This document shows positions 5,100 to 44,358 of a stretch of DNA of 44,488 bases, one piece after another (the first letter of the stretch is position 1; every line of letters begins with the position of its first letter). Source of the stretch: Eubacterium sp. (GTDB lineage Bacteria > Bacillota > Clostridia > Oscillospirales > Acutalibacteraceae); the NCBI GenBank assembly GCA_022511205.1, contig JAFLRY010000016.1, positions 1 to 44,488 on the forward strand, read 5' to 3'. A model generated the notes under the pieces. It worked only from the letters and a program-made list of their open reading frames with translations, was not told the DNA's origin and searched no databases. The position numbers were made by a program, and so were the translations under genes.

Positions 5100-5139
5100 A
5101 ACCATATGCTCCTACCATACTAAATTACTGTACTTATTA

Positions 5140-5168
5140 AGTATATAACAAACATTTTCTTTTTTCAA
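5140..5168 (-). promoter_or_regulatory. Promoter for the acidic parvulin gene
   Basis: On the minus strand TTGAAA (5163-5168), a 17-base spacer and TATACT (5140-5145), followed by the TAGGAG site and ATG at 5099. Confidence 0.6.
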
Positions 5169-5223
5169 CTAAAACGGATATTTTATTGTTACAAAATTGT
5201 TAAATATATGAAAAACTCTGCTA

Positions 5224-5252
5224 TTGAAAAGTAAATCTTTTTGTAGTATTAT
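5224..5252 (+). promoter_or_regulatory. Promoter for the O-antigen ligase-like / GH30 operon
   Basis: TTGAAA (5224-5229), a 17-base spacer and TATTAT (5247-5252), about 30 bases before the ATG at 5283. Confidence 0.6.
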
Positions 5253-5282
5253 GGTTACAAGTAAATTCAGCGTGGAAAATAT

Positions 5283-6680: not shown

Positions 6681-8324
6681 ATGAGTAAAAGCAAAATCAA
6701 AAAAATCTTAATACCCGTGATCTGCGTTATATGCGTGATCGCGCTGGCGGCTGCCTCCTACGGAGCGTACTTCCTTTTCGGAGTATACGGCGTTGAAACC
6801 AAGCGCACCTATCCCGTAAGCGCCGCGGTTACCGATAGCTACTACAGCCGCGTTGACGCAGGCGAAACGGGCGTTACGGTGATCGATGAAAAGGCAACGT
6901 ATCAGACGATGCAGGGCTTCGGTGCTTCCGCCTGCTGGTGGGCGCAAACCGTTGGCGGCTGGGATAACGTTAAAGATGTTCTCACTCTGCTCTACGATAA
7001 GGAAAACGGAATCGGCCTCAATATATTCCGCTACAATCTCGGCGCAGGCTCTAAAGATGACGAGCATATTTACGTTGAGAGAAGCAGAACGGAAAGCTTC
7101 CTTAAGGCAGACGGCACTTATGATTTCAGCGCGGACGCCAACGCGCAGAATACGCTTGCTATTGCGAAAAGCCTTGCGGGAGACGAGCTCAGAGTTACAC
7201 TGTTTGCCAACAGCCCCCCTGTTTCCCTCACAAGAAACGGCTTCGCTTACGGCTCTGCCGCCCATGACGGCGATCCTTTTGAGTGCAACCTTGATCCCGC
7301 AAACTACGAGGCGTATGCCGATTATCTCTATACCGTTGCCAAGTATTTCACTGACGGCGGCTACAGGGTTACAGACGTTTCCCCCGTTAACGAGCCTCAA
7401 TACGCTTGGCGCGCGTGGTATAACGCCGACGGCTCTTTCTCAATGAATCAGGAGGGCTGCTATTATCACGAGAACGATATGCTCGGCTTATACAAAGCCC
7501 TCATAGCGAAATTTGACGGCAGCGAGCTTGACAAACTGGGCTGTGAGCTTTCATTGTTTGAATCAGGCGCCGCGGAAGGCAGAAACACGCCTACCTCAAC
7601 GATTCTTGACGCCCTTCTCGGCAAGAAAAACGGTCAGTACAAATACAATAAAGAGCTGAGGGATTATTTCGATACGATCAGCACCCATTCCTACTGGTCA
7701 TCAGACGCCACAAAGAAGCGCATGGCTATTTATCTTTCCGAGAGATATTCCAACTATGACGTTATCTGCACCGAATACTGCCAGATGACCAACGACGGCA
7801 ATACCGGCGTTATCGATCTTATTCAGGCGGAAAACGGAAGCACCAACGGTATGACTATCGAATACGGCACGGCTATGGCAGAAGTCGTTTTAGACGATCT
7901 CACCCTTCTCAACGCAAAAGAATGGGATTGGTGGACTGCCTGCTCCTTCGGTATTTACCCCGACGGTCTCGTTTACTTAAACAATGATAATCATTCCGAT
8001 ATTCAGACATCCAAGCGTTTATGGTGTCTCGGCAACTTCTCCAAGTTCATTGATGAGGGTGCGGTTAGAATCGCCGCTGATTCAGGCGTTAAGAAGCTTT
8101 CAAACTGCGCTTTCAAGAATCCTGACGGCAGCACAGTTATCGTTTATGTAAACTCTAAGGATATCGACCAGTCCACAAAACTTGAGGGCATCAATTCAAG
8201 CAGCTATGAGGTTTATACCACCAGTGCTGAATATGATCTTGCGCTGACCGCAAGCGGCGATAACGCGGCGGACACCGTTATCAGCGTCCCCGCTCAGTCG
8301 GTAGTTACCGTAGTCCTCAAATAA
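6681..8324 (+). CDS. Membrane-anchored glycoside hydrolase family 30 enzyme
   Basis: 547 residues. An uncleaved-looking N-terminal signal anchor (KILIPVICVICVIALAAASYGAYFLFG) is followed by a TIM barrel and a C-terminal beta domain of GH30 type. The opening QTMQGFGASACWWAQ is the family start. Glu238 in SPVNEPQ is the expected acid/base and Glu365 in VICTEYCQM the expected nucleophile, both placed as in clan A retaining enzymes. The C-terminal part (KNPDGSTVIVYVNS) is the usual side beta-sandwich. GH30 includes glucosylceramidases, beta-1,6-glucanases, beta-1,6-galactanases and xylanases; I cannot pick a subfamily. An AAGGGGAT site precedes the ATG. Coupling to an O-antigen ligase-like gene hints at trimming of a surface glycan rather than bulk degradation. 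Confidence 0.87.
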   Translation: MSKSKIKKILIPVICVICVIALAAASYGAYFLFGVYGVETKRTYPVSAAVTDSYYSRVDAGETGVTVIDEKATYQTMQGFGASACWWAQTVGGWDNVKDVLTLLYDKENGIGLNIFRYNLGAGSKDDEHIYVERSRTESFLKADGTYDFSADANAQNTLAIAKSLAGDELRVTLFANSPPVSLTRNGFAYGSAAHDGDPFECNLDPANYEAYADYLYTVAKYFTDGGYRVTDVSPVNEPQYAWRAWYNADGSFSMNQEGCYYHENDMLGLYKALIAKFDGSELDKLGCELSLFESGAAEGRNTPTSTILDALLGKKNGQYKYNKELRDYFDTISTHSYWSSDATKKRMAIYLSERYSNYDVICTEYCQMTNDGNTGVIDLIQAENGSTNGMTIEYGTAMAEVVLDDLTLLNAKEWDWWTACSFGIYPDGLVYLNNDNHSDIQTSKRLWCLGNFSKFIDEGAVRIAADSGVKKLSNCAFKNPDGSTVIVYVNSKDIDQSTKLEGINSSSYEVYTTSAEYDLALTASGDNAADTVISVPAQSVVTVVLK

Positions 8325-29092: not shown

Positions 29093-30151
29093 ATGTACAC
29101 GAAACAACCGAAGAAATTGCTGATAATCAACATTCTTGATATTTTGAAAAAGTACACCGATGAGGATCACAGGCTCTCCCAGCGCGAAATTGCTGAGATT
29201 TTAAAAACCGAATACTCAATGAGCGTTGACCGCAAATCGGTAAAGCGAAATCTTATGAACCTTATTGATTTCGGTTATCCTATTGAGTATAGCGAATCTG
29301 TGCGTATGGTGCCAAACGCAAAAACGGGCACACTTGAAGAGAGCTTCATTCTTTCAGATTTTTATCTTGAAAGGGATTTTTCCGATGCGGAGCTTCGCCT
29401 ACTTATTGACAGCTTGCTGTTTTCAAAGCATATCCCATACAGTCAATGCAAGGATTTAATTAAAAAATTAGAGGGCTTATCTAACAAGTATTTTGAGTCA
29501 AAAGTTAAACACATACGTTCTCTGCCTGAAAACAAGCCTGCTAATAAGCAGTTATTCTATACAATTGATATTCTAGACGAGGCTATCAGTAAGGAAAAGC
29601 AAGTTAAGTTTCATTACGCTTTATATGGGGCAGATAAAAAGCTGCATAACCGTTTAGACAGCAATGGTGAGCCGAGAGAATACGTAATCAATCCGTATCA
29701 GATCGTCGCCACAAACGGCAGGTACTATCTGATTTGCAACTATAACAAATTTGACAATTTGTCAAATTATAGAGTTGACAGAATTACAGATATCGAATTA
29801 CTTGAAACCCCTGCTAAGCAGCCGCGTGAGGTCAAAGGTGCTGAAAACGGCTTTGATCTTTCTAAGCATATGGAGGAGCACATCTATATGTTCGCCGGCA
29901 ACGCCGTAAGGGTCGAGTTTATTGCGGACAAATTCATCATCAGCGACATCATCGACTATTTCGGAAACGACGTTGTTTTCACGAAAGAAACGGAAAACCA
30001 AGTCACAGTTTCGACAATGGTGAACGAGCAGGATATGCGCCTTTGGGCATTGCAGTATGCCCTGCAAATCAAAGTCCTCTCCCCTCCTTCGCTTGTGGAG
30101 AACATTAAAAATGATATATTAGAAGCGGCGGAAAAGTATAAGGAAGTATAA
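29093..30151 (+). CDS. WYL-domain transcriptional regulator
   Basis: 352 residues. The N-terminal 80 residues form a winged helix (HRLSQREIAEILKTEYSMSVDRKSVKRNLMNLIDFGY). The middle has the WYL domain (VINPYQIVATNGRYYLICNYNKFDNLSNYRVDRI, with N208GRYYLI), followed by a C-terminal WCX-like domain (VRVEFIADKFIISDIIDYFG). WYL proteins bind nucleic-acid-derived or other ligands and often repress defence or DNA repair operons. The next gene begins two bases after its stop (TAATTATG), so this regulator and the nuclease-like protein are co-translated. Self-regulation of the pair is likely but not shown. Confidence 0.85.
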   Translation: MYTKQPKKLLIINILDILKKYTDEDHRLSQREIAEILKTEYSMSVDRKSVKRNLMNLIDFGYPIEYSESVRMVPNAKTGTLEESFILSDFYLERDFSDAELRLLIDSLLFSKHIPYSQCKDLIKKLEGLSNKYFESKVKHIRSLPENKPANKQLFYTIDILDEAISKEKQVKFHYALYGADKKLHNRLDSNGEPREYVINPYQIVATNGRYYLICNYNKFDNLSNYRVDRITDIELLETPAKQPREVKGAENGFDLSKHMEEHIYMFAGNAVRVEFIADKFIISDIIDYFGNDVVFTKETENQVTVSTMVNEQDMRLWALQYALQIKVLSPPSLVENIKNDILEAAEKYKEV

Positions 30152-30153
30152 TT

Positions 30154-31629
30154 ATGATGTTAAGCAAATCACAATACATACGGGCAATACAATGCCCGAA
30201 AATGCTTTGGATGGACAAGTTTATGCCGGACAAGGCAGCGGAGATGAATTTGGATTCTTTTTTCGCAACGGGTAATGAGGTGGGTGACCTTGCCCGCTCA
30301 TATTTTGGTAATTATTCCCTCGTTGATTTCAGCTACGATAAGGAGCAGATGATTGCCGACACTGAAAAGTTAATTAGGGAAAACGCAGAAAATATTGCTG
30401 AAGCGAGTTTCATGTTTGACGGGCTTTTCTGCAGCGTTGATATTCTGCACCGAAATCATTACGGTTGGGATATCATTGAGGTCAAAAGCTCCACCGACGT
30501 CAGCGACGTTTATATCTCCGATATGGCGTTTCAGTATTATGTGCTAACGAACGCGGGGCTGAATATCACAGGCATATACAATATGCACCTCAATAGGAAT
30601 TACGTTCGCTACGGCGAGTTAGAACTTGATCGTCTTTTTACCATTGAAGATTGCACTGATGCGGTTCTTTTAAGGCAATCTCAAACGAAGCTCAACATTG
30701 ACACCATTCGCAGATATATGGCGATCGCGGATGATATGGAGCCCGAGTGCGAGATTGGTCTGCAATGCGAAAGCCCTTATAAATGTGCGTATAAGGGCTA
30801 TTGTCACCGGCATCTGCCCTACCCCTCAGTTTTCAATATCAAGAGACTGAGTGACCAGCGCAAGTATGATCTTTATTATGATAACATCATCAGCTACGAG
30901 AACATTATCCTCCGCAAGCCGAAGCTTAGTAAAAATCAGCTTTTGCAGGTTGAAACGGCATATTATAACCACCCGCCGCAGATCAATAAAAAGAAAATCA
31001 AAGAGTGCATTGACGAATTCACCTACCCCCTGTATTTCCTCGATTTTGAAACGTATCAGCCCGCGATCCCGAAATTTGACGGCATGTCTCCATATATGCA
31101 AACTCCGTTTCAGTATTCCCTCCACGCTCTGCAAAGCGAAAGCGCTGAGCTTGAGCACTACGAGTTTTTAACTAAAGAAGGAAGCGATCCGAGGCGCGAA
31201 CTGGCGGAGCGGCTTTGCAATGATATTCCGCTTGACGTTTGCACTCTTGCATTTAATATGACATTTGAAAAAGGCGTTATCAGAAATCTTGCAGAACTTT
31301 ATCCCGATCTTGCGGAGCATTTGATGAACATTCACGATAATATCAAGGATCTAATGACGCCATTTCAGAAAAAATATTATTACAGTGCTGCGCTTGAGGG
31401 CTCTTATTCAATCAAGTACGTTTTGCCTGCAATGTGCCCGAACGATCCCGAGCTTGATTACCACTCCCTTGAAGGTATCCATAACGGCGGCGAAGCAATG
31501 ACCGCTTTTGACGGGCTTGAAAAACGCTCACCCGAGGAGATCAAAACTATCCGTAAAAACCTCCTCACCTACTGCAGACTTGACACCCTTGCAATGGTCA
31601 AGATTCTTGAGAAATTACGCGAGATATGA
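30154..31629 (+). CDS. DUF2779 protein: Cas4/RecB-like nuclease fused to a DnaQ-like exonuclease
   Basis: 491 residues. The N-half is a PD-(D/E)XK domain of Cas4/RecB type: Asp96 in FCSVDILH and Glu109-Val-Lys111 in WDIIEVKSS are the catalytic set. Four cysteines (199, 205, 211, 217 in CEIGLQCESPYKCAYKGYC), with Cys14 in IQCPKMLW, could hold a 4Fe-4S cluster. The C-half opens with YFLDFETYQPAIP (Asp297, Glu299) and ends with TYCRLDTLAMVKIL, the pattern of a DnaQ/RNase T-like 3'-5' exonuclease. This is the known DUF2779 architecture, found with mobile and defence genes, whose biological role is not settled. It is coupled to the WYL gene. An AAGGAAG site precedes the ATG; 30157 is an alternative start. 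Confidence 0.83.
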   Translation: MMLSKSQYIRAIQCPKMLWMDKFMPDKAAEMNLDSFFATGNEVGDLARSYFGNYSLVDFSYDKEQMIADTEKLIRENAENIAEASFMFDGLFCSVDILHRNHYGWDIIEVKSSTDVSDVYISDMAFQYYVLTNAGLNITGIYNMHLNRNYVRYGELELDRLFTIEDCTDAVLLRQSQTKLNIDTIRRYMAIADDMEPECEIGLQCESPYKCAYKGYCHRHLPYPSVFNIKRLSDQRKYDLYYDNIISYENIILRKPKLSKNQLLQVETAYYNHPPQINKKKIKECIDEFTYPLYFLDFETYQPAIPKFDGMSPYMQTPFQYSLHALQSESAELEHYEFLTKEGSDPRRELAERLCNDIPLDVCTLAFNMTFEKGVIRNLAELYPDLAEHLMNIHDNIKDLMTPFQKKYYYSAALEGSYSIKYVLPAMCPNDPELDYHSLEGIHNGGEAMTAFDGLEKRSPEEIKTIRKNLLTYCRLDTLAMVKILEKLREI

Positions 31630-31850: not shown

Positions 31851-33896
31851 TCACTGATTATTCTCCATAAGCACTGCAAGCATCTTTTCCTGATGCTCTT
31901 TCATTTCATCAAATGTCCACCTTGATTTATCTTTGCATAATTGCAGCATGATCATAAATTTTAGTGAGGCAACGCTGATAAGATTTGTTTTTGAATCGAG
32001 ATAATGAATCCGCTTCGTTTCAGGGCTCCAGTTAGAGCCTGAGCTATTGGCGGCGCTCCCTATCATTGCATAATTTCCCAAGCAGTTAATTTGGCATTCA
32101 TTAGGTTTGCCGTCCTCTCCTGTCGCGGATGCTTGCGGATAATAATGCTCAAGACTTCTCCTGGTTCTTGAAAAGTAGAACTGATCAAACATTTTAAGAC
32201 CAAAGTCTGTGCACCCAAGTTTGGCAAAGAAATCCAGCCGTTCTTTGCTACCTTCTTTCAGTTTTTTACCCCGAAGTTCTGCATCATATAATTTCCATAA
32301 TTTATAATCAAGATAATTGAATATAAAAAGCGGTACACCCCTTGATACTTCCGTTCCATCTCCGTATATTTCGACGAATTCGCCTTTATCTTTTTTATTC
32401 AATTCAAATATGCAAAGCTTATACGCCTCGTTCTCTCCTTTCTCCAAAACAACCTCATCAAAACTGCCGGGCCTCGGTGTATTAATATCGTTCAATTTGC
32501 TTTTGTCAAGATACACCTTGTTAAAATATCTGTCTGCAAGTCCCTCAACAAAATCTGCATAGGCAGGAAGGTCTCTCTTGCTCTGCTCCATCAGATAGAG
32601 CAGGCAATAAAACAGGTAGTTCTTTCTCTGCCTCGCAGTAAACGACACCTCAAACATAGACAAAAGCTGCGTAAGTCTGTCCTGCAGAAAACCGTTTTCA
32701 GTATTATTTTCGGTCAAGTTTTTAAGTAAACCTTTAATATTTTCTTTGTGCCATTGCTGTAGTTTCCAGGGATTGCTGTCCATCGTATCCTCTTCCTTTG
32801 CATGATGAACAACATAATTATCCAACAAAAAACGTCCTTTCAGCAAATTATAAGCAAACTTCTTAACCTTGTTTTCATCCATTCTTGCATTGTTAAACTC
32901 TGCAAGCAGTTCCTTGTCATCCAAATTGAATTCTTTGGGAGAAAAGCCTTGTTCTTCCATCCTTGTTATCTTCAAAATAACAAGTAAAAAATTCGGAAAA
33001 TCGATGATTGGCTGAAAAGAATCTTTGATCTCGGTTTCTTCATCATTACGTTCCTGTTTGCTCCCTTTTTCATCGCTGATTATTTTAGCGATAGAAATTT
33101 TTTCAAAAACATCTTTTCTCGTTCCTTTGCTGTTTATCAGCTTTTCCAATAGCCCTTCAAAATTCTCAGGCAAGAAATCATTCAATGCAATTCCAAACAC
33201 CTCTGTATCACTTAAATTCTGTTGAGTATAAACGCTCATTTCCGAACAACATTCCCAAATACGGTTAAAAACCTTTCTCTCAGCCTCATCTTTAAGCTTT
33301 TCCATTAGATTCGCCTTCACTATTTCGTGCTTTTCAAGTTGCTCTCCTCTGGAATTCATAATCTCAAAGTAATGGTTCAAATCAATATCCTTCGGCACTT
33401 CATAATGAATAATATGTACATTCCTTTGGAAATAGGATTTGAAATCTTTTCTATCATTATCAGATACAATTTTTTCGATAGCTGACTTTGCTTTTTTATA
33501 CCCATTTTCTATCCCTTTGTCCTTTTCATCCACATTGAACTTCGGAATAGATTTAAGAGTATCATCCGACTTTTTCCGTGCTCTATACTTAAGCTGATTA
33601 CTATACGGAATATCAAGAACATCCAGCATAAGCCTTATCGTGGTAAGCCTTTGCTGACCGTCTATGATCTCAAATACTCCATCCCCCTTATGATACGATA
33701 CAAGCGTCCCTATATAATATAGCTTATTATCGCCTTTATTATAGGCATCATATATATCTTGTACCAGAGTAGTGATCTCGTCCTCATCCCATGCATAATT
33801 TCGCTGATAAATAGGGATCTCATAAACGCTTTTTTCGCTCCCGTTAAATAGTTCTCCTATAGAAATTTCCTTTAATGGCAAATTCTCCTTTGGCAT
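31851..33896 (-). CDS. GmrSD-type protein: DUF262 plus DUF1524 HNH nuclease
   Basis: 681 residues. The N-terminal DUF262 (ParB-like NTP-binding, GmrS) domain shows Y30QRNYAW and IIDGQQRLTT (Asp79 to Arg83). The C-terminal DUF1524 (GmrD) HNH-like domain has SLEHYYPQ (His584), LGNYAMIG and NSSGSNWSPETK. GmrSD enzymes are type IV restriction systems that cut modified DNA, the DUF262 domain using a nucleotide. The ATG follows the upstream gene's stop directly (TAAATG), with GGAGGAG just before, so the two DUF262 proteins are made together. The region between the domains is helical and unassigned. Restriction activity is inferred from family; no methyltransferase is present, as expected for type IV. 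Confidence 0.85.
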   Translation of the reverse strand: MPKENLPLKEISIGELFNGSEKSVYEIPIYQRNYAWDEDEITTLVQDIYDAYNKGDNKLYYIGTLVSYHKGDGVFEIIDGQQRLTTIRLMLDVLDIPYSNQLKYRARKKSDDTLKSIPKFNVDEKDKGIENGYKKAKSAIEKIVSDNDRKDFKSYFQRNVHIIHYEVPKDIDLNHYFEIMNSRGEQLEKHEIVKANLMEKLKDEAERKVFNRIWECCSEMSVYTQQNLSDTEVFGIALNDFLPENFEGLLEKLINSKGTRKDVFEKISIAKIISDEKGSKQERNDEETEIKDSFQPIIDFPNFLLVILKITRMEEQGFSPKEFNLDDKELLAEFNNARMDENKVKKFAYNLLKGRFLLDNYVVHHAKEEDTMDSNPWKLQQWHKENIKGLLKNLTENNTENGFLQDRLTQLLSMFEVSFTARQRKNYLFYCLLYLMEQSKRDLPAYADFVEGLADRYFNKVYLDKSKLNDINTPRPGSFDEVVLEKGENEAYKLCIFELNKKDKGEFVEIYGDGTEVSRGVPLFIFNYLDYKLWKLYDAELRGKKLKEGSKERLDFFAKLGCTDFGLKMFDQFYFSRTRRSLEHYYPQASATGEDGKPNECQINCLGNYAMIGSAANSSGSNWSPETKRIHYLDSKTNLISVASLKFMIMLQLCKDKSRWTFDEMKEHQEKMLAVLMENNQ

Positions 33897-35366
33897 TTAT
33901 TTCTCCTCCGTTTTCTCCAAAAATTTGTATTTCTTAAAATAATAAAGATAGTTCTGGTGTACTTTTTCTTCTACCTCATCAATATCAGCAGTATTTTCTT
34001 TTAGGTCTGAGTAGTAGATTGGCACTGTCAAATCAGCCATCTTGCTGAGAAGGGCGCTTGGCGAGTCGGATTCGAATATTATCTTGTATATATTAAATCC
34101 GTTCACAATTCCACTGCTTTTGCTGACAGTTCCCATAATGTAGTTTTGCGCAACCTGCCAACCGACATTCCTATACTGTGCACGCATCGAATATGCCCAA
34201 ATAAACGCAAATACCAGAAATTGATCCAGATATTCCGTATCTGCTTTAGAGGGTTTTGCGGGGCAGAATCTGTCAATGTACAGCAATAAAGCGGTATCAA
34301 ACATTAATCGAGTTATTCTCTTACCGACACCATTTTTATATTTTCTAAGATTAAGCGTTTTCACAATCGAGTTATCATTGATAAAGTAACCCTCGTATTT
34401 GCTATTATTTTGAATATCCGCCAGAATATCAAAATAGTGCTTTGCATATTCGAAGAAAGGTTTTCCCGCAATAATGGGGGCATTGATTTGAAACGGATTA
34501 AGTTGCTGAACGCCCATAACAAACGGCATATGCGAGCGATTCAGCTCATCAGCGTACGCAAATGCGCCTTTATAATATTTCGCATACGGGTAATTATCTC
34601 TTGCTGTAATGCCTTTGAACAAATCTATATTGTGCTCCGTAAGTTCCTTAGAGCGATTTCCTTTTACCCACTCTTTCAGCCGATACAGATATTCGTTGAA
34701 TAATACCGCCAGATTCTTTTGATCCAAATCCTCCCACATTTTGACAATGCGTTCCGTTTCGGTCACGTCGATATTATTCATTTCCCGAAGATGATATGCC
34801 TTGAGCAAATCGTGGGGATAAAGAGATTTGCCTCTGGCGTTTTGTGAGTCAAAAAACTGGAAGGCTTCAGAAAGATCCTCCGTAATAACAACGATCAATT
34901 CACAATGCTTGCAAATATATTCCGTGAGATTATTCCTATCCTTTTCATTCGAAAACTTATCTGTTCGCCTCTCCAGAGCTCTGTAATTGTTCTTCACGTT
35001 GTGAAGATTATACTGTTTGCCTATCAATTCCTGCTCAAGAAAAAACGGTTTCCGATCGAGGCAATTCAGCAGAAGTGAGAAAGTAATGATTCTTTGCTGA
35101 CCGTCAACGATATTGTAAACTCCCGTTTCGTCACGGTGCAAAATAAGCGTACCCACCCTATATACTTCCTTGTTGGCTATCATAGCTTCCTCAATATCAT
35201 CAAAAAGCTGGTTTGCATTTTTTGCAGTCCATTTATAAGGACGCTGATACTCGGGTATTTTCAGATTGATTTTTTCCAAAGGATCTCCGTCCTCCGTTTT
35301 AGTAATCTTGTCTTCCAGCAACAAGTCACCTATCTTTGCGATCCCCAGCTTCAATCGGTTATTCAT
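33897..35366 (-). CDS. DUF262 protein without HNH domain (partner of the GmrSD-like gene)
   Basis: 489 residues. The N-terminal DUF262 domain has EYQRPYKW (Tyr40 to Trp46) and IVDGQQRII (Asp88 to Arg92). The remaining 350 residues are helical and show no EHxxPQ/HNH motif, so catalysis would depend on the partner at 31851-33896, to which it is coupled by an exact TAA-ATG junction. It has a TGAGGTGAT ribosome binding site. Paired DUF262 genes recur in defence islands. One reading is that this protein gives specificity or regulation and the partner cuts; another is that both are independent NTPases. Which applies cannot be told from sequence. Confidence 0.8.
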   Translation of the reverse strand: MNNRLKLGIAKIGDLLLEDKITKTEDGDPLEKINLKIPEYQRPYKWTAKNANQLFDDIEEAMIANKEVYRVGTLILHRDETGVYNIVDGQQRIITFSLLLNCLDRKPFFLEQELIGKQYNLHNVKNNYRALERRTDKFSNEKDRNNLTEYICKHCELIVVITEDLSEAFQFFDSQNARGKSLYPHDLLKAYHLREMNNIDVTETERIVKMWEDLDQKNLAVLFNEYLYRLKEWVKGNRSKELTEHNIDLFKGITARDNYPYAKYYKGAFAYADELNRSHMPFVMGVQQLNPFQINAPIIAGKPFFEYAKHYFDILADIQNNSKYEGYFINDNSIVKTLNLRKYKNGVGKRITRLMFDTALLLYIDRFCPAKPSKADTEYLDQFLVFAFIWAYSMRAQYRNVGWQVAQNYIMGTVSKSSGIVNGFNIYKIIFESDSPSALLSKMADLTVPIYYSDLKENTADIDEVEEKVHQNYLYYFKKYKFLEKTEEK

Positions 35367-35711: not shown

Positions 35712-37301
35712 TTAGGATCGTTCACCATCGATCAGCTTAAATTTTATATCATTTTCTTTTGCGTACTCTTCTGCATACGAACCGGAATAGCAGTTTATAG
35801 TCAACTTCTCGCATTTGGAAAATGCTGCTATCTCTATTTTGCTCACACTTTTTGGTATCGTTATTTCAGTCAAATTATTACAACTACCAAATGCCTGACA
35901 TTCTATTTTTTCAACACAATCCGGAATAGTAATTCTTTCAAGACCTTTACAGTCTTCAAACGATTTTTGACCAATAATTTTTAAACCGTTAGGAATGACA
36001 GTGTTTTTGCAACCCAGTACCAATTTATTCTCTAACTTGTCAATAATAGCGTGGCAGTTGTCTCCGCTATCATATCTTAAATTCTTTTTATCTACATTAA
36101 TGCTCTCAATATTATTGCACATTAAAAATGCGTTTTCATCAATAAAAACAACGTTTTCGGGAATCCTTATATCCATTAACCCATTGAGATAAGCAAACGC
36201 TTCACTCTCAATAATACAAATGTCCTCCGGTATAACGGTATTATTACAGCCTACGATCAACTTATTTATTGCAGTTTCAATAATGGCATTGCATTCGTTT
36301 CTGCTGTCATACATTTCGTTTGCGCTATCTACCACTATTCTTTTAATATTACTGCAGACAAAAAATGACATATTGTCAATTTCCGTAGTGTTATAAGGTA
36401 TAAATAATTCTTCCAAATTTGAACAACCCGAAAAAGCCATAAGACCGATACTCATTACATTTTCAGGAAAAATAACTTTTGACGGACATTCACTGAACGC
36501 AAAATCATTTATTCTAACTACTGTATCGGGAATCACCGTATTTATGCATCCCAACACCAATTCATTTGCACGCGATTTGATAACAGCGTTGCAATTATTT
36601 CTGCTGTCATAATGTGTATTTCTTTCGTCAACAAATATAGATTTTAAATTGATACAGTCCTCAAAACATTTCCCGTAAAGATCTTCAACATTTTTGGAAA
36701 TCACTAATTCTTCAAGCTCTGAACAATTTCTAAACGCGTCAAAACTTATTCGCGTTACGCTTTCGGGAACGGTAACCTTTTTATCATTTCCCAAAAACTT
36801 TTTCAATTCTCCATCGCGTATAAGAAATCTTTGACCGTCTATCAATTCCACCTTTCCGTATTTTTTCAGTGCGTCTAAAAGCTTGTGATACACGATCTTA
36901 TTAGGGTAATATCTGTAATCGGAAAATATAGAAATTCCGTTGCCCTCAAAACATTCAAGTATAGCAGCCGCACAGCCAGCACTGCGGCTTTGCCCGTATT
37001 CGCATTGGCATAAAATATCCAAATCGTCTGAAACTGCGGAATAAATAAATTCAGCAAGCTCGTCCGCTTCAGTGAAAAAAGTCTCATAAGCAAAGTCATA
37101 ATATTTAAGCTCGTCCATATCTAAATCCATAAGCGGAAGCTGAAAAATGCGTTGCACGTTATCGTGAAAAGAAACGGGTTTGAATTTGCTATTCTCCCTC
37201 ATCAACTCAACGTCATAAAATCTGATGAGGGCGGTATTCTCTGGAAATCCCAACTGCAATAATTCTTCTATGCTCTGTCTTGAATGTATTTTTATATTCA
37301 T
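35712..37301 (-). CDS. Phosphatase-like domain fused to BspA-type leucine-rich repeats
   Basis: About 529 residues from the ATG at 37301 (AAAGGAGG site 8 bases before; two other in-frame ATGs are too close or upstream). Residues 1-165 resemble a dual-specificity protein phosphatase: CQCEYGQSRSAGCAAAILE holds C100-x5-R106-S, and an upstream Asp-rich stretch (PLMDLDMDEL) could supply the general acid. The rest is LRR_5 (BspA-like) repeats arranged as three super-repeats, each containing YDSxxxCxAII and LxLGCxNTVIP. There is no signal peptide, wall anchor or membrane helix, so the protein should be cytoplasmic, unlike most BspA proteins, which are secreted. Target recognition by the repeats with dephosphorylation by the N-domain is the natural guess. 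Confidence 0.78.
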   Translation of the reverse strand: MNIKIHSRQSIEELLQLGFPENTALIRFYDVELMRENSKFKPVSFHDNVQRIFQLPLMDLDMDELKYYDFAYETFFTEADELAEFIYSAVSDDLDILCQCEYGQSRSAGCAAAILECFEGNGISIFSDYRYYPNKIVYHKLLDALKKYGKVELIDGQRFLIRDGELKKFLGNDKKVTVPESVTRISFDAFRNCSELEELVISKNVEDLYGKCFEDCINLKSIFVDERNTHYDSRNNCNAVIKSRANELVLGCINTVIPDTVVRINDFAFSECPSKVIFPENVMSIGLMAFSGCSNLEELFIPYNTTEIDNMSFFVCSNIKRIVVDSANEMYDSRNECNAIIETAINKLIVGCNNTVIPEDICIIESEAFAYLNGLMDIRIPENVVFIDENAFLMCNNIESINVDKKNLRYDSGDNCHAIIDKLENKLVLGCKNTVIPNGLKIIGQKSFEDCKGLERITIPDCVEKIECQAFGSCNNLTEITIPKSVSKIEIAAFSKCEKLTINCYSGSYAEEYAKENDIKFKLIDGERS

Positions 37302-37332
37302 ATACATATCCTCCTTTGGGGGATAGTATAAC

Positions 37333-37366
37333 AAAACAGATGTACCAAAAACGGCACACCTGTTTT
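37333..37366. terminator. Hairpin upstream of the phosphatase-LRR gene
   Basis: AAAACAG (37333-37339) pairs with CTGTTTT (37360-37366), extended inward by TGT/ACA and CC/GG with two mismatches. It lies about 20 bases before the AAAGGAGG site and could be a terminator or a 5' leader structure. Confidence 0.4.
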
Positions 37367-37482: not shown

Positions 37483-37519
37483 ACCTGCGACGAACGCATT
37501 GTCCGCCACAGGTTTTTTT
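37483..37519. terminator. Possible terminator downstream of the dnaA-like remnant
   Basis: ACCTG (37483-37487) and CAGGT (37509-37513), with further partial pairing (GCGAC / GTCCGC, one bulge) and a plus-strand T7 run. The stem is imperfect. Confidence 0.4.
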
Positions 37520-37785
37520 ATTCTTTTTCAGGCAATGTAATATCGATGATAAGTCCCCATTTAAATTTTGTGCACAATCGAGAGGCTATGCCGTCAAGTT
37601 TATTTGGGTGCGTATTTGATGTTATAACTAATTGCATTTTATTCTCAATAAAATGATCTACTATCATCAATATCTCACATTGTACAGTGGAGTTACCCGA
37701 AACAAAATGAATATCATCAACAAATGAAGCGATTTGACGGCTTAATGTTAAAAGTATCAAATCTATTTTCCGTATCAAATTTCAT
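37518..37785 (-). pseudogene. Decayed dnaA-like gene (internal deletion and frameshift)
   Basis: An ATG at 37785 with a GGGAGAATAATT leader starts MKFDTENRFDTFNIKPSNRF, the entry of a DnaA AAA+ domain (FDTF...SNRF), and stops after 22 codons. In the next frame the sequence resumes with FVDDIHFVSG (Walker B), then VITSNTHPNKL, ASRLCTKFKWGLIIDI (sensor I and Arg-finger-like region), and ends at 37518. The Walker A segment and about 80 residues are missing, the two parts are out of frame, and the lid and DNA-binding domain IV are absent. The second frame has no normal start codon at its head. It lies 30 bases after the PolC-like gene on the same strand, so it was probably the last gene of that operon. 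Confidence 0.8.
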
Positions 37786-37815: not shown

Positions 37816-40800
37816 TTAAAATAAAGAAATTTGGTTTTGATCAGGTATATCCCTAAGAGCGCCCAGCTTTTTAAGTGATTCAACTACACTTTTACCGATT
37901 CCTGCCCTTGCCATTAAATCGTCACAAGATATAAATTCACCATTGCCATCATTACGCGCTTTGATGATTGCTTTTCCTGCATTTTCGCTAACGCCTTCAA
38001 TTGCGCTAAAGGGTAAACGGATTCTCCCATCCTCAACCATATAGATTTTGGCATCTGATTTATAAATATCAACCGGCAAAAAATCTATACCTCTTGCAAA
38101 CATCTCAATAATAATTTGCAATATAGAAAAAGTATTTATGTCCTTTTTCGCCTTTTCACTGCTATTCAATACAATTTCATTCATCTTTTGCTTTACTGCC
38201 GACTTCCCTTTAACAACTAAAGAGGCATCAATACTATTATCGCTATAAACCGTAAAATAGGCCGAATAAAAATTAATAGGATAATAAATTTTGTACCACG
38301 CAAGCCGGAGAGCAGAAATAACATATGCCGCTGCATGGGCTTTAGGAAACATATACTTTATCTTGTAACAGGAATCAATATACCATTGTTCAACGCCGAC
38401 AGTTCTCATAGCTTCTTCAAAAGGCGGTAATTCTTTTAGAGCCTTACCCTTTCGAGTGATCTCCATAATTTTAAAGCAATCTTTTTTCGAAAGCGGAGAT
38501 TTTCTGCCCGTGCTGATTTCATAGTTTTCTGCTTTATGGATAAGATACGTCATAATATCATCACGGCATCCTATGACCTGTGAAATATTACAAATTCCGT
38601 TTTGAATAAGATCTCGTGCATTACCAAGCCATACGTCTTTACCGTGTGACAAGCCTGAAATTTGAAGCAAATCAGCAAACGTCTTAGGCTTCGCCTCTTC
38701 AAGCATCCCCATAACAAAAGGGGTGCCCATTTCAGGAATGGCAAGAGTTCCGGTATTGCAATCAATATCTTCCGGCTGAACTCCTATCGGTTCGGTTGAA
38801 GTGATAAGTTGATAGAGTCTTGGATCGGATAAATCGATATCCATTACGGAAACACCCGTTGAATCTTCAAGGTATTTATACATAGTAGGATTTTTATGCC
38901 CAAGCTCATCAAGCTTAAGTAGTGTATCATGAAGCGAATTTTTAAAATCAAAATGAGTTGTTTTTTCATCCTTTTTACTATCGCCTGACGGAAACTGAAT
39001 AGGGGTAAAGTCCTCAATCGTATAGTTCTCAGGAACAACAACCATTCCTCCTGGATGCTGGCCTGTTGTGCGCTTTATGCCTGTGCAACCTTCAGTCAGT
39101 CTGTTGATTTCTGCTTTTGACACTATGTTAGCCAGGCCACGCTTGTTCAAGTAAGCCATAACATATCCTTCTGAAGTTAATTCTGCAACAGTGGATATCG
39201 TTCCTGCCTTAAACACATATTCTTTGCCAAATAACTCTTTAGTATATCGGTGTGACTGAGATTGATATTCATCAGAAAAATTCAAATCAATATCGGGTTC
39301 TTTATCTCCGTCAAAGCCAAGGAAAGTTTCAAAAGGAATTTCATGACCATCACGTTTCATAGATACACCGCAATTAGAGCAATTTTTAGGCGGTAGGTCA
39401 AAACCTGATCTATATTCACCATGCAAAAAGAATTCGCTATGCTTACACGCTTTACAATAATAATGAGGAGCAAGCGGATTCACTTCGGAAATACCGGCTA
39501 AATGTGCAGCAAGAGAAGAGCCTACGGAACCTCTGGAGCCAACCAAATATCCGTTCCTTTCGCTTTCTTCAACAAGACGCTTAGCTATAACATACAGTAC
39601 GCCAAAACCGTGTCCGATAATTGAATCCAGTTCTCTCTGCAATCGTTCTGATACATATTTAGGCACAGGATCGCCATAAAGCTCCTTTGCTTTTGACCAG
39701 CATTTTTCTGTGAGTTCTTCATCAGCGCCATCAATATGCGGCTGAAAAGTCCCCGGTGGTATTGGCGGAATGTCATCCATAACCATATCGGCAATTTTAT
39801 TCGGATTATCTATAACGAATTCTTTTGCCCGATCACCTGCCCAAGCAAAATCATCAAGCATTTCATCTGTTGTTTTGAAGTAAAGCGGCGCCTGATTATC
39901 AGCATCATTAAACCCTTTTGATTCCATAATAATTGAACGGAATTTCGCATCTTTTTCATCAAGGAAATGAACATCCCCTGTTGCAACGACAGGTAACCCT
40001 AACTCATCCGCAAGAGCAATAATCTTTTTATTGATATTTATTAAATCATCTTCGCAAGTAATCTTTTCATAAAGTTCCTTATCAGAATGAATCATAAACA
40101 TATTATTGCCGTTAGGTTGAATTTCAAGATAATCATAAAAAGACGCAATTTTTTTGAGTTCTTCATTTGATTCTTCACGAAGAACAGCCTGATAAAGTTC
40201 GCCCTGCTCACAGGCGGATCCTACAATCAATCCGTTGCGCTTTCGAGCGAGCAATGATTTTGGAATAAGCGGTCTGGTTTTATATGTTTTTATATTTGAA
40301 TGCGTAATAAGTTCATACAAATTCTTTCTGCCGTATTTGCGTTTCTCTTTAGGAATACTTTCATCAAGTGACGTATCCTCTTTCACAAGCAGAATTATAT
40401 GATACCGTTTAAACTCATTTGTTTTCATTTCCACAAAATCAGGATATTTTTCGTCATCAACTAAATATCCCTCCATACCCAGAATGAGTTTTATTTTTCC
40501 TTTTGCTGTTTTATATGCCTCCGGCAGAGCCTGTACAACTCCGTGGTCTGTTATAGCTATTGCTTTATGACCCCATTCAATTGCCCGACTGACAAGAGCC
40601 GAAGGAGATGATACTCCATCCATATCCGATAAAGAAGTGTGAAGATGAAGTTCAACTCTTTTCTCTTTTGCTGTATCTCCTTTTTCGGCTTTTAATACAG
40701 TTTGAATGTTGTCAGCTGTAATTACATATTCTTTTAGATATCTGTCATATGTGTATGGGCCACTCACAATTAGTGTTTTAGCGTTATTAATTCTTTTATC

Positions 40801-41595
40801 AACACTTTCTATTACATTTTTTCTATCAAATAGTTTAACGGTAACTGACGACGTATAATCTGTAATATCAAACGTCAAAATTTTATAATATCCTTTTTTG
40901 GTGTCTTCAAGCGTATATTTTATAATATCTCCGCAAACAGTAGCAAAACCCGTGTCAAATTTTAATTCTGAAATATGAATTGGTTTTTCTTTTATCGGTT
41001 TTCCTAAGACGGTTTTAACCGTTTCTATGTAAACAGGAAGATTGCCAAGTAATGTTTTTTTTAAGCTTTTTTCTTTCTTTTCTTTTTCGTTGACAACAGA
41101 TTTTTTTATTTCTTTTTCTATATCATATTTTTCGATTTCAAACAATTCGACTTCAATAGACATATCGAATAAATCTAAAATCAAACTTTTTATCTCTGTA
41201 TCAACACCTTGGTTTTTTAGTAATTCTAATCCTCCTTTTTTCAATGATATGTTTAATATGTTTTCGTTGAGTGAAATATCTGAATCCTCAAAAAAGCCGT
41301 ATGCGGAAGGATTATTCCTGCTTACGAACTCAATAATTGAAGAAAAATATTCAACATTAAATAGATCTCTTGAATAGCAGGGATTTATATGAAATTTTCT
41401 TAATAGCATTTTTTCTTTTATATGATTCTCTGCTTTTATAAATTCTGAATATGCAATAAGTTTATCAAGTTGAAGAATTATCGAAACTTCTCTTTCTTGC
41501 TTTTTTATCGTTATTCTTTTTACAATACCATTTCCCAAGCTTAAAAGCAGATCGTCATCAACATATTCACCGAAATAATCTTTAAATAAATTCAT
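37816..41595 (-). CDS. PolC-type DNA polymerase III alpha subunit lacking the proofreading exonuclease
   Basis: 1259 residues; B. subtilis PolC has 1437. An N-terminal OB-fold region is followed by a PHP domain (ELHLHTSLSDMDG, His317/His319; AIAITDHG; GMEGYLVDD near 372-380). Here canonical PolC carries an inserted DnaQ exonuclease opening with a VxFDxETTG motif. In this protein the chain runs straight on to EMKTNEFKRYHIILLVKED and the second PHP half (GLIVGSACEQGELY), so about 170 residues including all exonuclease motifs are absent. The polymerase is intact: LVGSRGSVGSS, the zinc cysteines in YYCKACKH and NCSNCG, P767DIDLNF with Asp768/Asp770, Asp896 in KLDELGH, and GIKRTTGQHPGG. The C-terminal QNQISLF resembles a beta-clamp motif. 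It starts 48 bases after the MBL gene, with an AGAGG site. It is presumably a second, error-prone or specialised PolC. Confidence 0.88.
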   Translation of the reverse strand: MNLFKDYFGEYVDDDLLLSLGNGIVKRITIKKQEREVSIILQLDKLIAYSEFIKAENHIKEKMLLRKFHINPCYSRDLFNVEYFSSIIEFVSRNNPSAYGFFEDSDISLNENILNISLKKGGLELLKNQGVDTEIKSLILDLFDMSIEVELFEIEKYDIEKEIKKSVVNEKEKKEKSLKKTLLGNLPVYIETVKTVLGKPIKEKPIHISELKFDTGFATVCGDIIKYTLEDTKKGYYKILTFDITDYTSSVTVKLFDRKNVIESVDKRINNAKTLIVSGPYTYDRYLKEYVITADNIQTVLKAEKGDTAKEKRVELHLHTSLSDMDGVSSPSALVSRAIEWGHKAIAITDHGVVQALPEAYKTAKGKIKLILGMEGYLVDDEKYPDFVEMKTNEFKRYHIILLVKEDTSLDESIPKEKRKYGRKNLYELITHSNIKTYKTRPLIPKSLLARKRNGLIVGSACEQGELYQAVLREESNEELKKIASFYDYLEIQPNGNNMFMIHSDKELYEKITCEDDLININKKIIALADELGLPVVATGDVHFLDEKDAKFRSIIMESKGFNDADNQAPLYFKTTDEMLDDFAWAGDRAKEFVIDNPNKIADMVMDDIPPIPPGTFQPHIDGADEELTEKCWSKAKELYGDPVPKYVSERLQRELDSIIGHGFGVLYVIAKRLVEESERNGYLVGSRGSVGSSLAAHLAGISEVNPLAPHYYCKACKHSEFFLHGEYRSGFDLPPKNCSNCGVSMKRDGHEIPFETFLGFDGDKEPDIDLNFSDEYQSQSHRYTKELFGKEYVFKAGTISTVAELTSEGYVMAYLNKRGLANIVSKAEINRLTEGCTGIKRTTGQHPGGMVVVPENYTIEDFTPIQFPSGDSKKDEKTTHFDFKNSLHDTLLKLDELGHKNPTMYKYLEDSTGVSVMDIDLSDPRLYQLITSTEPIGVQPEDIDCNTGTLAIPEMGTPFVMGMLEEAKPKTFADLLQISGLSHGKDVWLGNARDLIQNGICNISQVIGCRDDIMTYLIHKAENYEISTGRKSPLSKKDCFKIMEITRKGKALKELPPFEEAMRTVGVEQWYIDSCYKIKYMFPKAHAAAYVISALRLAWYKIYYPINFYSAYFTVYSDNSIDASLVVKGKSAVKQKMNEIVLNSSEKAKKDINTFSILQIIIEMFARGIDFLPVDIYKSDAKIYMVEDGRIRLPFSAIEGVSENAGKAIIKARNDGNGEFISCDDLMARAGIGKSVVESLKKLGALRDIPDQNQISLF

Positions 41596-41643: not shown

Positions 41644-42819
41644 TTATATTGAAAATTTTTCTCCGTCATTAAGTAACACGAGCTTTTCTTGCGGTAGTAA
41701 TTTTGAAAACTTTTCAGGAATTTCTCCATGAATAGGGATAAAGCTTATTTTGGGATTTACGGCTTGATACAGCTTAACTAAATCCCGCGTTGAAGCGTGA
41801 CCGCTGGTGTGCTTAAATATAAGCTCATAACCACTGAGAAATTCCGCAAGTTGTTCATTCCTTGTTTCGCCCTTGAGATATCCGCTCCACATTGAGTAAA
41901 TTATCTTGCTTCTGCCTTTATACCGCTCAAGCAGTTTAGCAAACTGCTCGCCTTGGCGAATCATCATACAAAAGCCTTGCTTTTCCATTAAATCGTCAAG
42001 GTTTGGTGCGTAGCTATACACGTGAGAAAAATCGTAAAATTTGCTATACTGCTTATGGTGTTCCCTAACGATTTCCAACTGGGATTTCTGATATTCGTCA
42101 CAAATGAAGAGCCTGCCATGAGGATTGGCGTGATAGAATGAGCCGATTCGGTCAATATTCGTGCTTGAGCAAAGTGCGAAAACGTATTGGTTTTCGAGCA
42201 TTATCTCGTAAATTTGCTTTTGAAGCTCTCGTTCGGAAATAATAGGAGTATCCTCTCGTGAAAGATTCGTGCTTTCACAGATTATGCAATCAATGTCGGT
42301 TGCATACTTGCGAAGCATGGGGATGGTCATTGCTCCGCGGAAACCGTGCAGACGGAAATCTCCCGTATGCAGAACACGTTTGCCGTCCGCCTCTATAATG
42401 AACATATAGGCGTCAAAAGCCGAATGATCCACCATCAAGGGCGTTACGGTTATATCTCCGACACGAATCTTATCAAGCGGAGAAAAGGTAAAGATAGAAT
42501 CAATTTTTCCTATTATCTCGCTTTGAGTTCGGCGAGCATAATTTTGATACAACGCCTTAGCCGTCTTGCCCATATAAATTGGAATACCCTCACAAACCTC
42601 GTTCAGCCTGCCCACATGATCGCCATGATAATGGGTAAAGAACAGAGCGCTGACAGAATCGTCAGAAACAGTCAACCCTGAAATCAATTTTGTCGGTTCG
42701 CTTGGCGTTGCACTTGGCAGATCTGCGCCGAAGTCAATAAACACCTTTGCATTGCCTGATGAAATTTCTGTCACACACCCGCCTATCTGATGCGTTCCCC
42801 TGTGAATAATAATCTTCAT
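41644..42819 (-). CDS. Beta-CASP metallo-beta-lactamase-fold nuclease (RNase J-like)
   Basis: 391 residues from the ATG at 42819 (GAGGG five bases before); an upstream GTG at 42831 would use the ribosome binding site as codons. All zinc-nuclease motifs are present: FFTHYHGDHVG (His63, His65, Asp67, His68), VDHSAFDAYMF, HTGDFRLHG, and the beta-CASP motifs CESTN, TSGHAS and IPIHGE. RNase J proteins of Firmicutes are about 550 residues with an extra C-terminal domain, which is absent here. It likely cuts RNA or DNA in the cytoplasm. It heads an operon with the exonuclease-less PolC and is driven by a promoter almost identical to that of the 44331 gene. Confidence 0.85.
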   Translation of the reverse strand: MKIIIHRGTHQIGGCVTEISSGNAKVFIDFGADLPSATPSEPTKLISGLTVSDDSVSALFFTHYHGDHVGRLNEVCEGIPIYMGKTAKALYQNYARRTQSEIIGKIDSIFTFSPLDKIRVGDITVTPLMVDHSAFDAYMFIIEADGKRVLHTGDFRLHGFRGAMTIPMLRKYATDIDCIICESTNLSREDTPIISERELQKQIYEIMLENQYVFALCSSTNIDRIGSFYHANPHGRLFICDEYQKSQLEIVREHHKQYSKFYDFSHVYSYAPNLDDLMEKQGFCMMIRQGEQFAKLLERYKGRSKIIYSMWSGYLKGETRNEQLAEFLSGYELIFKHTSGHASTRDLVKLYQAVNPKISFIPIHGEIPEKFSKLLPQEKLVLLNDGEKFSI

Positions 42820-42840
42820 AATAACCCTCACTTAATAATG

Positions 42841-42987: not shown

Positions 42988-43935
42988 TTAAAATTTCGCT
43001 AAATCTTCTAATTGGTTTGAACTTTTTATTAATTTATATTTGTCAAATCCAATCAAATCATCTATATTCAACTCTTTTTTATCTAATAAACAAACATCAG
43101 AAAACAAAAATATAGGGTCGAATTTTTCTAACTTCTTTTCATACTGTTTATCCTTTATCAATTTTTGAAAATTTTTGGTAGAAGCATCTTTAAGATTATC
43201 AAATAAATAACGTTTTGTTTGAGCCAGCAATTTATTATTTTGATTAGCTAATATAACAAAATAAATATCTGCATTTTTATTAAAATCTTCTACTGATACT
43301 AATGGTTTTGAAGAAGAAACTAGTTTTCTATAGCTGTTAATTATAGAACATAATTCTTTCTTAAGATATGTTTCAAACCTATTTTCATCAGCAAACAATA
43401 AAAAGTCTTCAGCGTGCTTACAAATTCCATTATTTCCGCCAATAGCACCGGAATCATATTTTAGTTCAATTAATGCAGTTTTATAGGGCTTTTGTTTGGT
43501 AACTGCAATAATATCAAAACGTCCTGCTTGCCCATCTTTCACATATTCTATATCAATACATTGCCACTTTGAATTTTTATTCTTATTGATATTTTGGGCG
43601 AAAATTTGCTGAGAAATTTTTTCCGCACTTTGTATATGATCAACATTCTTTTTTATTTGGTTATATTCTGATTTTAAACAATCGAAAGTGATTGTTTGCC
43701 GGCCTTTTTCAGCATCACAGTTTAAATATCTATTTGCGATTTCATACTTAAAACCATTTGATGTTAAACTTATTTTACTTATACTTGCGCATTTATAATA
43801 AATATTAATGTATTCATCTCTTATTCCTATGAAAAGCTCATTTTTGTGTTCTTCATAAAAATCTTTTAACTCACTTTCATCCCACGCAGTTATGAATTTT
43901 TCAGATAAACCACGATATTTTACATTATTTTCCAT
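42988..43935 (-). CDS. PD-(D/E)XK nuclease-like protein, unknown family
   Basis: 315 residues, lysine-rich and low in GC. The centre has GRFDIIAV...ALIELKY with Asp141 and Glu157-Leu-Lys159, the D...ExK arrangement of a PD-(D/E)XK phosphodiesterase, possibly helped by Glu130. The N-terminal 100 residues and the C-terminal third have no known motif. Its start lies 21 bases after the stop of the small upstream gene, with an AAGGGAAG site, so they form a two-gene operon closed by a terminator. A nuclease that acts on DNA or tRNA is the best guess. The co-regulated MBL/PolC operon next door supports a role in nucleic-acid processing. Confidence 0.7.
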   Translation of the reverse strand: MENNVKYRGLSEKFITAWDESELKDFYEEHKNELFIGIRDEYINIYYKCASISKISLTSNGFKYEIANRYLNCDAEKGRQTITFDCLKSEYNQIKKNVDHIQSAEKISQQIFAQNINKNKNSKWQCIDIEYVKDGQAGRFDIIAVTKQKPYKTALIELKYDSGAIGGNNGICKHAEDFLLFADENRFETYLKKELCSIINSYRKLVSSSKPLVSVEDFNKNADIYFVILANQNNKLLAQTKRYLFDNLKDASTKNFQKLIKDKQYEKKLEKFDPIFLFSDVCLLDKKELNIDDLIGFDKYKLIKSSNQLEDLAKF

Positions 43936-43956: not shown

Positions 43957-44331
43957 TTATATAATTTCTATCGGATTAACAACGCCGTAAAAATATGATG
44001 CTGTACGCACGGAATTAACACGTGCAGTTACGCTTCGCTGGCTTTGATATCCAAAAACAAATTTAAAAACATATCCCCAAAATGCGCCAACTGCCCTTTT
44101 CTCGAATTCAGTTAGTTCCTTTTGTATCGGTCTCGCACGTAAAAAAGTATGCGTTGGTGGAATCTCCAACACATCATTACAAAAAATAATGTGCCCAAGC
44201 AGTGTTTCGTCATGTATCGCATCAAGACAGCACTGCCAGTATTCGCTGTCAATAAAGCCACCGAACGCCTTATACTTACTACTAAACCCCTCATATAACT
44301 TTTCTTCAATTTGGTTAGTTGTAAATTTCAT
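43957..44331 (-). CDS. Small protein of unknown function, first gene of the nuclease operon
   Basis: 124 residues from the ATG at 44331 with GGGTGAT 6-7 bases before; a TTG at 44346 is unlikely. It is mixed alpha/beta and soluble, with aromatic-rich segments (GGFIDSEYWQCCLDAIH, GAFWGYVFKFVFGYQSQRS) and a basic patch near the C-terminus. I recognise no family. It directly follows a consensus promoter with an inverted-repeat operator and is co-transcribed with the PD-(D/E)XK gene. It could be a regulator of the module, an antitoxin-like partner or an accessory subunit. Confidence 0.6.
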   Translation of the reverse strand: MKFTTNQIEEKLYEGFSSKYKAFGGFIDSEYWQCCLDAIHDETLLGHIIFCNDVLEIPPTHTFLRARPIQKELTEFEKRAVGAFWGYVFKFVFGYQSQRSVTARVNSVRTASYFYGVVNPIEII

Positions 44332-44358
44332 ATAAATATCACCCAAGACAATATAATA

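Follow-up and report, generated by a model that had tools for sequence, protein, structure and literature searches.

An extra PolC without an exonuclease domain beside a beta-CASP metallo-beta-lactamase and a putative nuclease gene in Eubacterium sp. (Acutalibacteraceae)

The window analyzed here is the entire 44488-base contig JAFLRY010000016.1 (G000:C8) of a Eubacterium sp. assembly, G000 (1.9 Mb, 74 contigs; completeness 97.3%, contamination 1.84%). On its reverse strand (37816..41595) it carries an extra polC gene, polC2, which is the last gene of a cassette in the order 129-aa protein, putative PD-(D/E)XK-like nuclease, beta-CASP metallo-beta-lactamase (MBL), PolC. We observed an extra copy with intact active-site residues, a recurring MBL partner, and MBL and PolC-like genes together in unrelated families. 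Our tentative reading, held at somewhat less than an even chance, is that polC2 is a spare, genus-derived exonuclease-less PolC that acts as the accessory enzyme of a mobile, probably defensive nuclease cassette. On this reading, modules of that kind would have taken up PolC repeatedly.

The gene starts with ATG and encodes 1259 aa with an N-terminal domain (NTD), OB, PHP, palm, fingers and helix-hairpin-helix (HhH) regions and, at 1255, the C-terminal clamp-binding motif QISLF. C-terminal motifs of this type bind the clamp. The chain is about 180 aa shorter than what we take to be the length of Bacillus subtilis PolC. Pfam recognizes NI, NII, PHP, DNA_pol3_alpha, finger and HHH_6; an RNase_T exonuclease is not among its matches at E <= 0.001. 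The PHP domain is continuous from GMEGYLVDD to FKRYHII, precisely where the exonuclease sits in four main PolCs from other families of the class. Residues 222-1259 align with PDB 3F2B, a 1041-aa PolC chain from Geobacillus kaustophilus, in a single stretch, and with the 1474-aa PolC 9qpc in two. In 3F2B, as in polC2, no exonuclease interrupts the run of PHP, palm, fingers and HhH; the crystallized chain is presumably an engineered form, whereas the deletion in polC2 is natural. The palm aspartates are D768, D770 and D896 (PDIDLNF from 767; LLKLDELGH from 892), and the GSRGSVGSS block is present. All nine PHP ligands are kept (H-H-D-H-E-H-C-D-H), the choice of residues following our own reading and the accessible part of PMC12926913. 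Both NCBIfam PolC models are exceeded (1347.5 bits against a cut-off of 873, and 1234.2 against 1043.45). By NCBIfam score, domain order and the three palm aspartates, the predicted product is a PolC-type DNA polymerase III. The exonuclease insert is not needed for this membership, because 6% of PolCs lack it according to the accessible text of Timinskas et al. 2013 (PMC3919608), which lists Clostridia, Negativicutes and one Thermotogae exception. A preliminary description of the window had named the PolC parts, the same aspartates and the absent exonuclease between the PHP halves, all of which Pfam, the alignments and the 3F2B match bear out.

A second, canonical polC is present in G000 (G000:C2:39343-43182; 1282 aa, 72% identical to polC2), likewise without the exonuclease. 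Its neighbors are ispG on one side and a HisZ-HisG type gene on the other; cdsA, dxr, rseP, uppS, frr and pyrH lie upstream (names by reading the translations), and a DnaE-like gene lies on the same contig (28% identity, frame of 1156 aa). polC2 does not share this ispG-polC-hisZG context, and ispG is not beside it. Since G000 has this canonical copy, polC2 is not the main enzyme, as the preliminary description had expected.

The missing exonuclease is common to the genus. Complete canonical copies were found in 29 of the 36 other genus genomes, which makes 30 with the main copy of G000; the other seven genomes hold fragments or none. All 30 have frames of 1264-1325 aa that align without an exonuclease-sized gap. 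At these loci (L002, L007-L035) ispG adjoins polC in 29 of 30 cases, the contig of the thirtieth ending there. In other families of the order, 21 of 23 genomes gave a PolC match; in 18 of these the polC frame measures 1364-1543 aa and contains an RNase_T match, and in G037, G054 and G059 it is shorter and has none. As judged from these sequences, the exonuclease loss dates back at least to the origin of the genus, and because all 30 complete canonical copies are exonuclease-less, polC2 inherited the absence of the domain. A loss peculiar to polC2 is ruled out by these 30 copies, the main PolC of G000 among them, and the earlier suggestion that the missing domain makes polC2 special or a mutator is not supported. 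Assembly loss of the exonuclease is unlikely, given the architecture shared by all 30. A binning error or contamination is also an unlikely source of the contig, which holds the genome's only fumarase-subunit match, up to 87% identical to genus relatives. The genus main PolC fits the known type in the accessible text of PMC3919608, with no exonuclease insert and a DnaE partner. Exonuclease loss in PolC is already known; the MBL-nuclease setting is the unexpected part. That text treats exonuclease-less PolC as a domain variant, and an extra copy beside an MBL-nuclease cassette does not appear in it, nor does the 756-aa form described below. Irregular polC loci were also met in the genus. The only polC found in G031 (G031:C48 65903-69623) consists of two open frames that overlap, the break falling around residue 611-645. 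In G029 (G029:C3 71999-72715) just the last 240 polC residues were matched, inside an odd 'open frame' of 24238 aa that is perhaps a run of N.

The MBL gene (41644..42831, reverse strand, 395 aa) is separated by 48 bases from polC2, which follows it downstream on that strand. Pfam, NCBIfam, motifs and the predicted fold agree on its assignment. EF2904 (2AZ4) and RNase J are its best sequence matches and also the top fold matches of its model (predicted local distance difference test, pLDDT, 78.7). By sequence and model the product is a beta-CASP MBL of the RNase J fold, with HxHxDH kept. It differs from RNase J in being shorter, in scoring 68.2 against a cut-off of 400 with the NCBIfam RNase J models, and in its gene neighbors. 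The next gene (42988..43935, reverse strand, 315 aa) matches no Pfam family above cut-off and gave a structure model with a pLDDT of 34; its label as a PD-(D/E)XK-like nuclease comes only from a motif and from homologs beside MBLs in other genomes. The 129-aa protein (43957..44346, reverse strand) has homologs upstream of nuclease and MBL in G224, G381 and G386. polC2 is AT-rich, with a GC content of 0.358 and a third-position GC content (GC3) of 0.278 versus 0.482 and 0.570 for the main polC of G000. The GC3 of the MBL gene is 0.44.

The MBL-PolC pair occurs in 3 of 80 genus genomes (3 of 51 at a completeness of at least 90%), namely G000, G084 and G021. In all three the MBL has a nuclease-like gene upstream and PolC directly downstream, with MBL-PolC gaps of 48, 21 and 24 bases. 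The recurring MBL neighbor that the preliminary description proposed to seek in relatives is thus found directly upstream of the extra PolC in two other genomes. The G084 protein (1041 aa) has no NTD and a shortened C-terminus, with its active sites intact (three Asp, nine PHP ligands). The G021 protein (986 aa) has its ends cut as in G084, and its catalytic residues are changed (PDIALAF replaces PDIDLNF, D896E, PHP changes). A WYL gene lies 4-12 kb from the cassette in all three cases, and a DUF2779 gene in two.

Beyond the genus, MBL hits were obtained in 9 of 394 genomes of the order, 9 of 391 of the class (both including G000) and 9 of 378 of the phylum (including G000 and G510); a further order sample gave no additional MBL genome. 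We examined 36 MBL loci: 3 from the genus, 8 from the order, 9 from the class, 7 from the phylum, 3 from a viral collection and 6 from plasmids, the last taken from 12 matching records. The neighborhoods of 35 were scored, the MBL in G381 having been missed by the open reading frame (ORF) caller. Within four genes of the MBL, 29 loci have a nuclease-like gene, 6 a PolC-like gene and 5 a DnaQ-like gene (one being the fused L175 protein described below), counts that are rough because the nuclease queries came from the same loci, some of them chosen on inspection, and because the MBL is close to the contig end in several cases. There are weak PADLOC matches of two relatives' MBLs to LmuA and of one MBL to the type VII CRISPR Cas14 model.

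One case outside the genus is G584, from another family, with the order helix-turn-helix (HTH) protein, MBL, nuclease and 756-aa mini-PolC (gaps of 15, -8 and 0 bases). This very divergent mini-PolC keeps the three polymerase aspartates and the nine PHP ligands. The main PolC of G584 carries the exonuclease block, so its absence from the mini-PolC is independent of the host enzyme. Beside the MBL of G717 lie two remnants of PolC, of 351 and 114 aa. No chromosomal PolC was found in this genome (99% complete), in which the single other match is a 1192-aa frame of DnaE size; the remnants therefore probably came from outside. The mobile contig L175 encodes a 790-aa PolC near the MBL with RNase_T, PHP, palm and fingers. 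The G584 and L175 proteins have neither HhH nor clamp motif, stopping just past the fingers; the corresponding place is also where the second G717 remnant stops. NTD and C-terminal clamp motif are both missing from the PolCs of G084, G021 and G584. A search of the viral collection with the G584 mini-PolC gave no relative; a search with an alignment gave seven loci, with an MBL in one only, the L175 contig already known (= L208). Phage-collection matches to PolC include many unannotated fecal 'Bacteriophage sp.' records (such as MT836562 and MT837681) with Clostridia-like PolC, maybe pieces of bacterial chromosome, and were not used.

DnaQ-like exonuclease genes directly adjoin the MBL at L159 (G453, 5066-6067), L160 (G412, 7194-8195) and L154 (G571, 7200-7730); the Pfam scan covered the G453 gene only. 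It is as if a DnaQ-like exonuclease and PolC alternated in one slot beside the MBL. The 200-aa HTH protein of G584 (L152, 7720-8376) has homologs beside several MBLs and weak PADLOC matches to WYL and CARF-HTH, and is possibly a signal-binding regulator.

To place the extra copies we relied on careful trees, from both of which the G021 copy was excluded. polC2 falls in a six-row group with the main PolC of G000 and close species (99/99), and the G084 copy falls elsewhere. An old clade of exonuclease-less extra copies is not seen, polC2 lying among the main PolCs of its own species group; the preliminary description had proposed a tree to look for exonuclease-less forms as a clade of their own. 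A placement of polC2 as sister of the G000 main copy alone was rejected (approximately unbiased test, p-AU 0.016). Grouping the window and G084 copies gave a p-AU of 0.055, so one origin is not clearly rejected. Another tree joins the G021 and G084 copies, a result for which long-branch attraction is cautioned. Long branches prevent placement of the G584 mini-PolC, and its grouping with its own main PolC was not rejected (p-AU 0.164). polC2 appears to descend from the PolC stock of the genus itself, which had already lost the exonuclease.

Between the window copy and L084, the differences at codon positions 1, 2 and 3 are 0.21, 0.12 and 0.51 (pN 0.16, pS 0.71), and on this comparison of sequences polC2 is under purifying constraint. 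Of the columns that do not vary among 45 canonical rows, 22 of 479 are changed in the window copy, 59 of 459 in the G084 copy and 94 of 442 in the G021 copy, whereas a canonical row reaches 9 of 488 at most. Such a rise is what one might expect of a plain duplicate, a polC copy that chance or hitch-hiking brought next to the MBL and that now drifts, playing no part in the cassette. The lost ends of the G084 and G021 copies and the restriction to 3 of 80 genomes fit it as well. A plain duplicate is nevertheless unlikely in view of an MBL partner that is shared by three genomes and recurs in unrelated families, of frames of 986-1259 aa that stay open with synonymous differences in excess, and of the G584 active sites kept over a long divergence.

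In the cassette that we favor, the nucleases would cut or resect foreign or damaged nucleic acid, and PolC as accessory enzyme would fill or extend the processed DNA, with any proofreading left to the PHP site of the cassette PolC. The residues suggest that this PolC is catalytically intact in some cassettes and decayed in others. The GmrSD, WYL, recombinase, plasmid and restriction-modification genes around MBL loci look defensive or mobile, and the cassette would be defensive. A broader proposal, possible but on balance doubtful, is that C-family replicative polymerases have been recruited repeatedly into a mobile PD-(D/E)XK-like/beta-CASP MBL immune module and cut there to a PHP-palm-fingers mini-PolC, the window being an early full-length recruit. 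If true, this would put a C-family core replicase to a new use, in a mobile nuclease module that carries PolC or a mini-PolC of 756 aa, and the mini-PolC would show how little of PolC nature can retain. MBL-fold nucleases recruited into mobile immune loci have a parallel in PMC12799240, the accessible text of which describes MBL nuclease - trypsin-like protease pairs in Hachiman, AVAST, Lamassu and DRT systems and a resemblance to ComEC-like DNA-uptake nucleases. Unlike those pairs, the window has a beta-CASP MBL and a PD-(D/E)XK-like nuclease, and no protease was recognized in the cassette. The MBL-PolC cassette itself was not found in the literature searched, subscription papers being mostly outside reach.

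Several observations weigh against our reading. No PADLOC-DB 2.0.0 family (E <= 0.01) matched any of the four cassette proteins of the window, so the word 'defensive' applies by association. There is no PolC-like neighbor at 29 of the 35 scored MBL loci (several contigs end near the MBL), and catalytic residues are lost in two of the six PolC partners (G021 and G717). The trees leave both one capture and several captures of PolC possible. In favor of the reading, a rough estimate puts the chance of the MBL-PolC co-occurrence at 1.6e-5 (genes placed at random; 8 genes in 1800, 4 lineages in 34), but this figure was computed after seeing the data and ignores the clustering of replication and mobile genes.

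An improbable alternative, on a level with the plain duplicate, is that the extra PolC is, by descent or by function, the replication polymerase of a mobile element, plasmid or phage-like, whose remaining genes are missing here. It is supported by the replication region of the Butyrivibrio proteoclasticus plasmid pCY186, where dnaX, a DnaA/Hda protein, PolC and dnaB share their strand with WYL, a 277-aa hypothetical protein and MBL. This recalls the window, which also has a WYL gene, a hypothetical protein and an MBL near PolC and a DnaA-family gene; the pCY186 PolC differs in its length of about 1490 aa and in lying ~8.7 kb from the MBL, beside dnaX and dnaB. L175 likewise unites DnaB-like pieces, the DnaQ-PolC protein, MBL, an integrase and ParA/ParB-like genes. 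A DnaA fragment adjoins polC2, and the four cassette PolCs measured are AT-rich (GC3 0.28-0.32 vs 0.57 for the main polC of G000). However, no helicase, primase, clamp-loader or initiator was recognized among the Pfam-scanned window ORFs, and reading the 11 listed neighbors in G084 and the 8 in G021 gave no such replication genes. Most MBL loci are also without PolC, and the window copy is of chromosomal PolC stock. The repair polymerase role, which the preliminary description named beside that of a mobile-element replicase, is also a possible one. Least probable is a decoy or guard, a look-alike of the host replicase through which phage proteins that target PolC would set off the nuclease cassette: the near-host origin of polC2, the open 986-aa frame of G021 with its catalytic residues gone, and the loss of NTD and clamp motif in G084, G021 and G584 suit it, but active sites are retained in the window copy, in G084 and, over long divergence, in G584, G717 has no chromosomal PolC found to guard, and one literature search on decoys and PolC inhibitors returned general papers only.

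The genus seemingly replicates with an exonuclease-less PolC, which raises a testable question: is the PHP site of PolC or DnaE the proofreader? G000 has one RNase_T match at E <= 1, in a 300-aa ORF. Among the 37 genus genomes (G000-G036), 12 have RNase_T frames outside a size class of 286-332 aa (180-564 aa), and G010, G017, G020 and G035 have no match; the remaining genomes have frames solely in that class, the G015 frame matching much more strongly than the others. A dedicated DnaQ throughout the genus is not supported by this survey. A strong standalone RNase_T frame is present in two of the exonuclease-less genomes from other families, G037 (177 aa) and G054 (206 aa), and G059 (86% complete) gave no match. 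The PHP is one of two proofreader types in the accessible part of PMC12926913, and an intact PHP site would be the simplest candidate.

The island around the cassette is AT-rich with nuclease and defense-like genes (GmrSD, WYL, DUF2779 and the nuclease-like neighbors), much as first described. Downstream of polC2 lies the 86-aa DnaA AAA+ fragment, possibly a remnant (37518..37778, reverse strand; Pfam Bac_DnaA 9.1e-13, PDB DnaA 3.9e-10). It covers the Walker B region and sits between polC2 and a leucine-rich repeat (LRR) gene; the nearest relatives found are just 30-34% identical, one being the DnaA/Hda gene of pCY186. The LRR gene (35712..37334, reverse strand) encodes a 540-aa BspA-type protein by Pfam, in which, by our reading, CEYGQSRSAG near the start resembles a C-x5-R phosphatase loop fused to BspA-type repeats. 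On the forward strand lie genes for a WYL protein (29093..30151), which has homologs close to the cassettes of G021 and G084 (the latter 84% identical), and a DUF2779 protein (30154..31629), with a homolog near the G021 cassette. Pfam and PADLOC identify two adjacent reverse-strand genes as GmrSD-type, one for a GmrSD_N/GmrSD_C protein (31851..33896) and one for a GmrSD_N (DUF262) and DUF7834 protein (33897..35366). On a Prevotella plasmid, two DUF262 genes occur together with WYL, an MBL of the kind seen in the window and a 3'-5' exonuclease.

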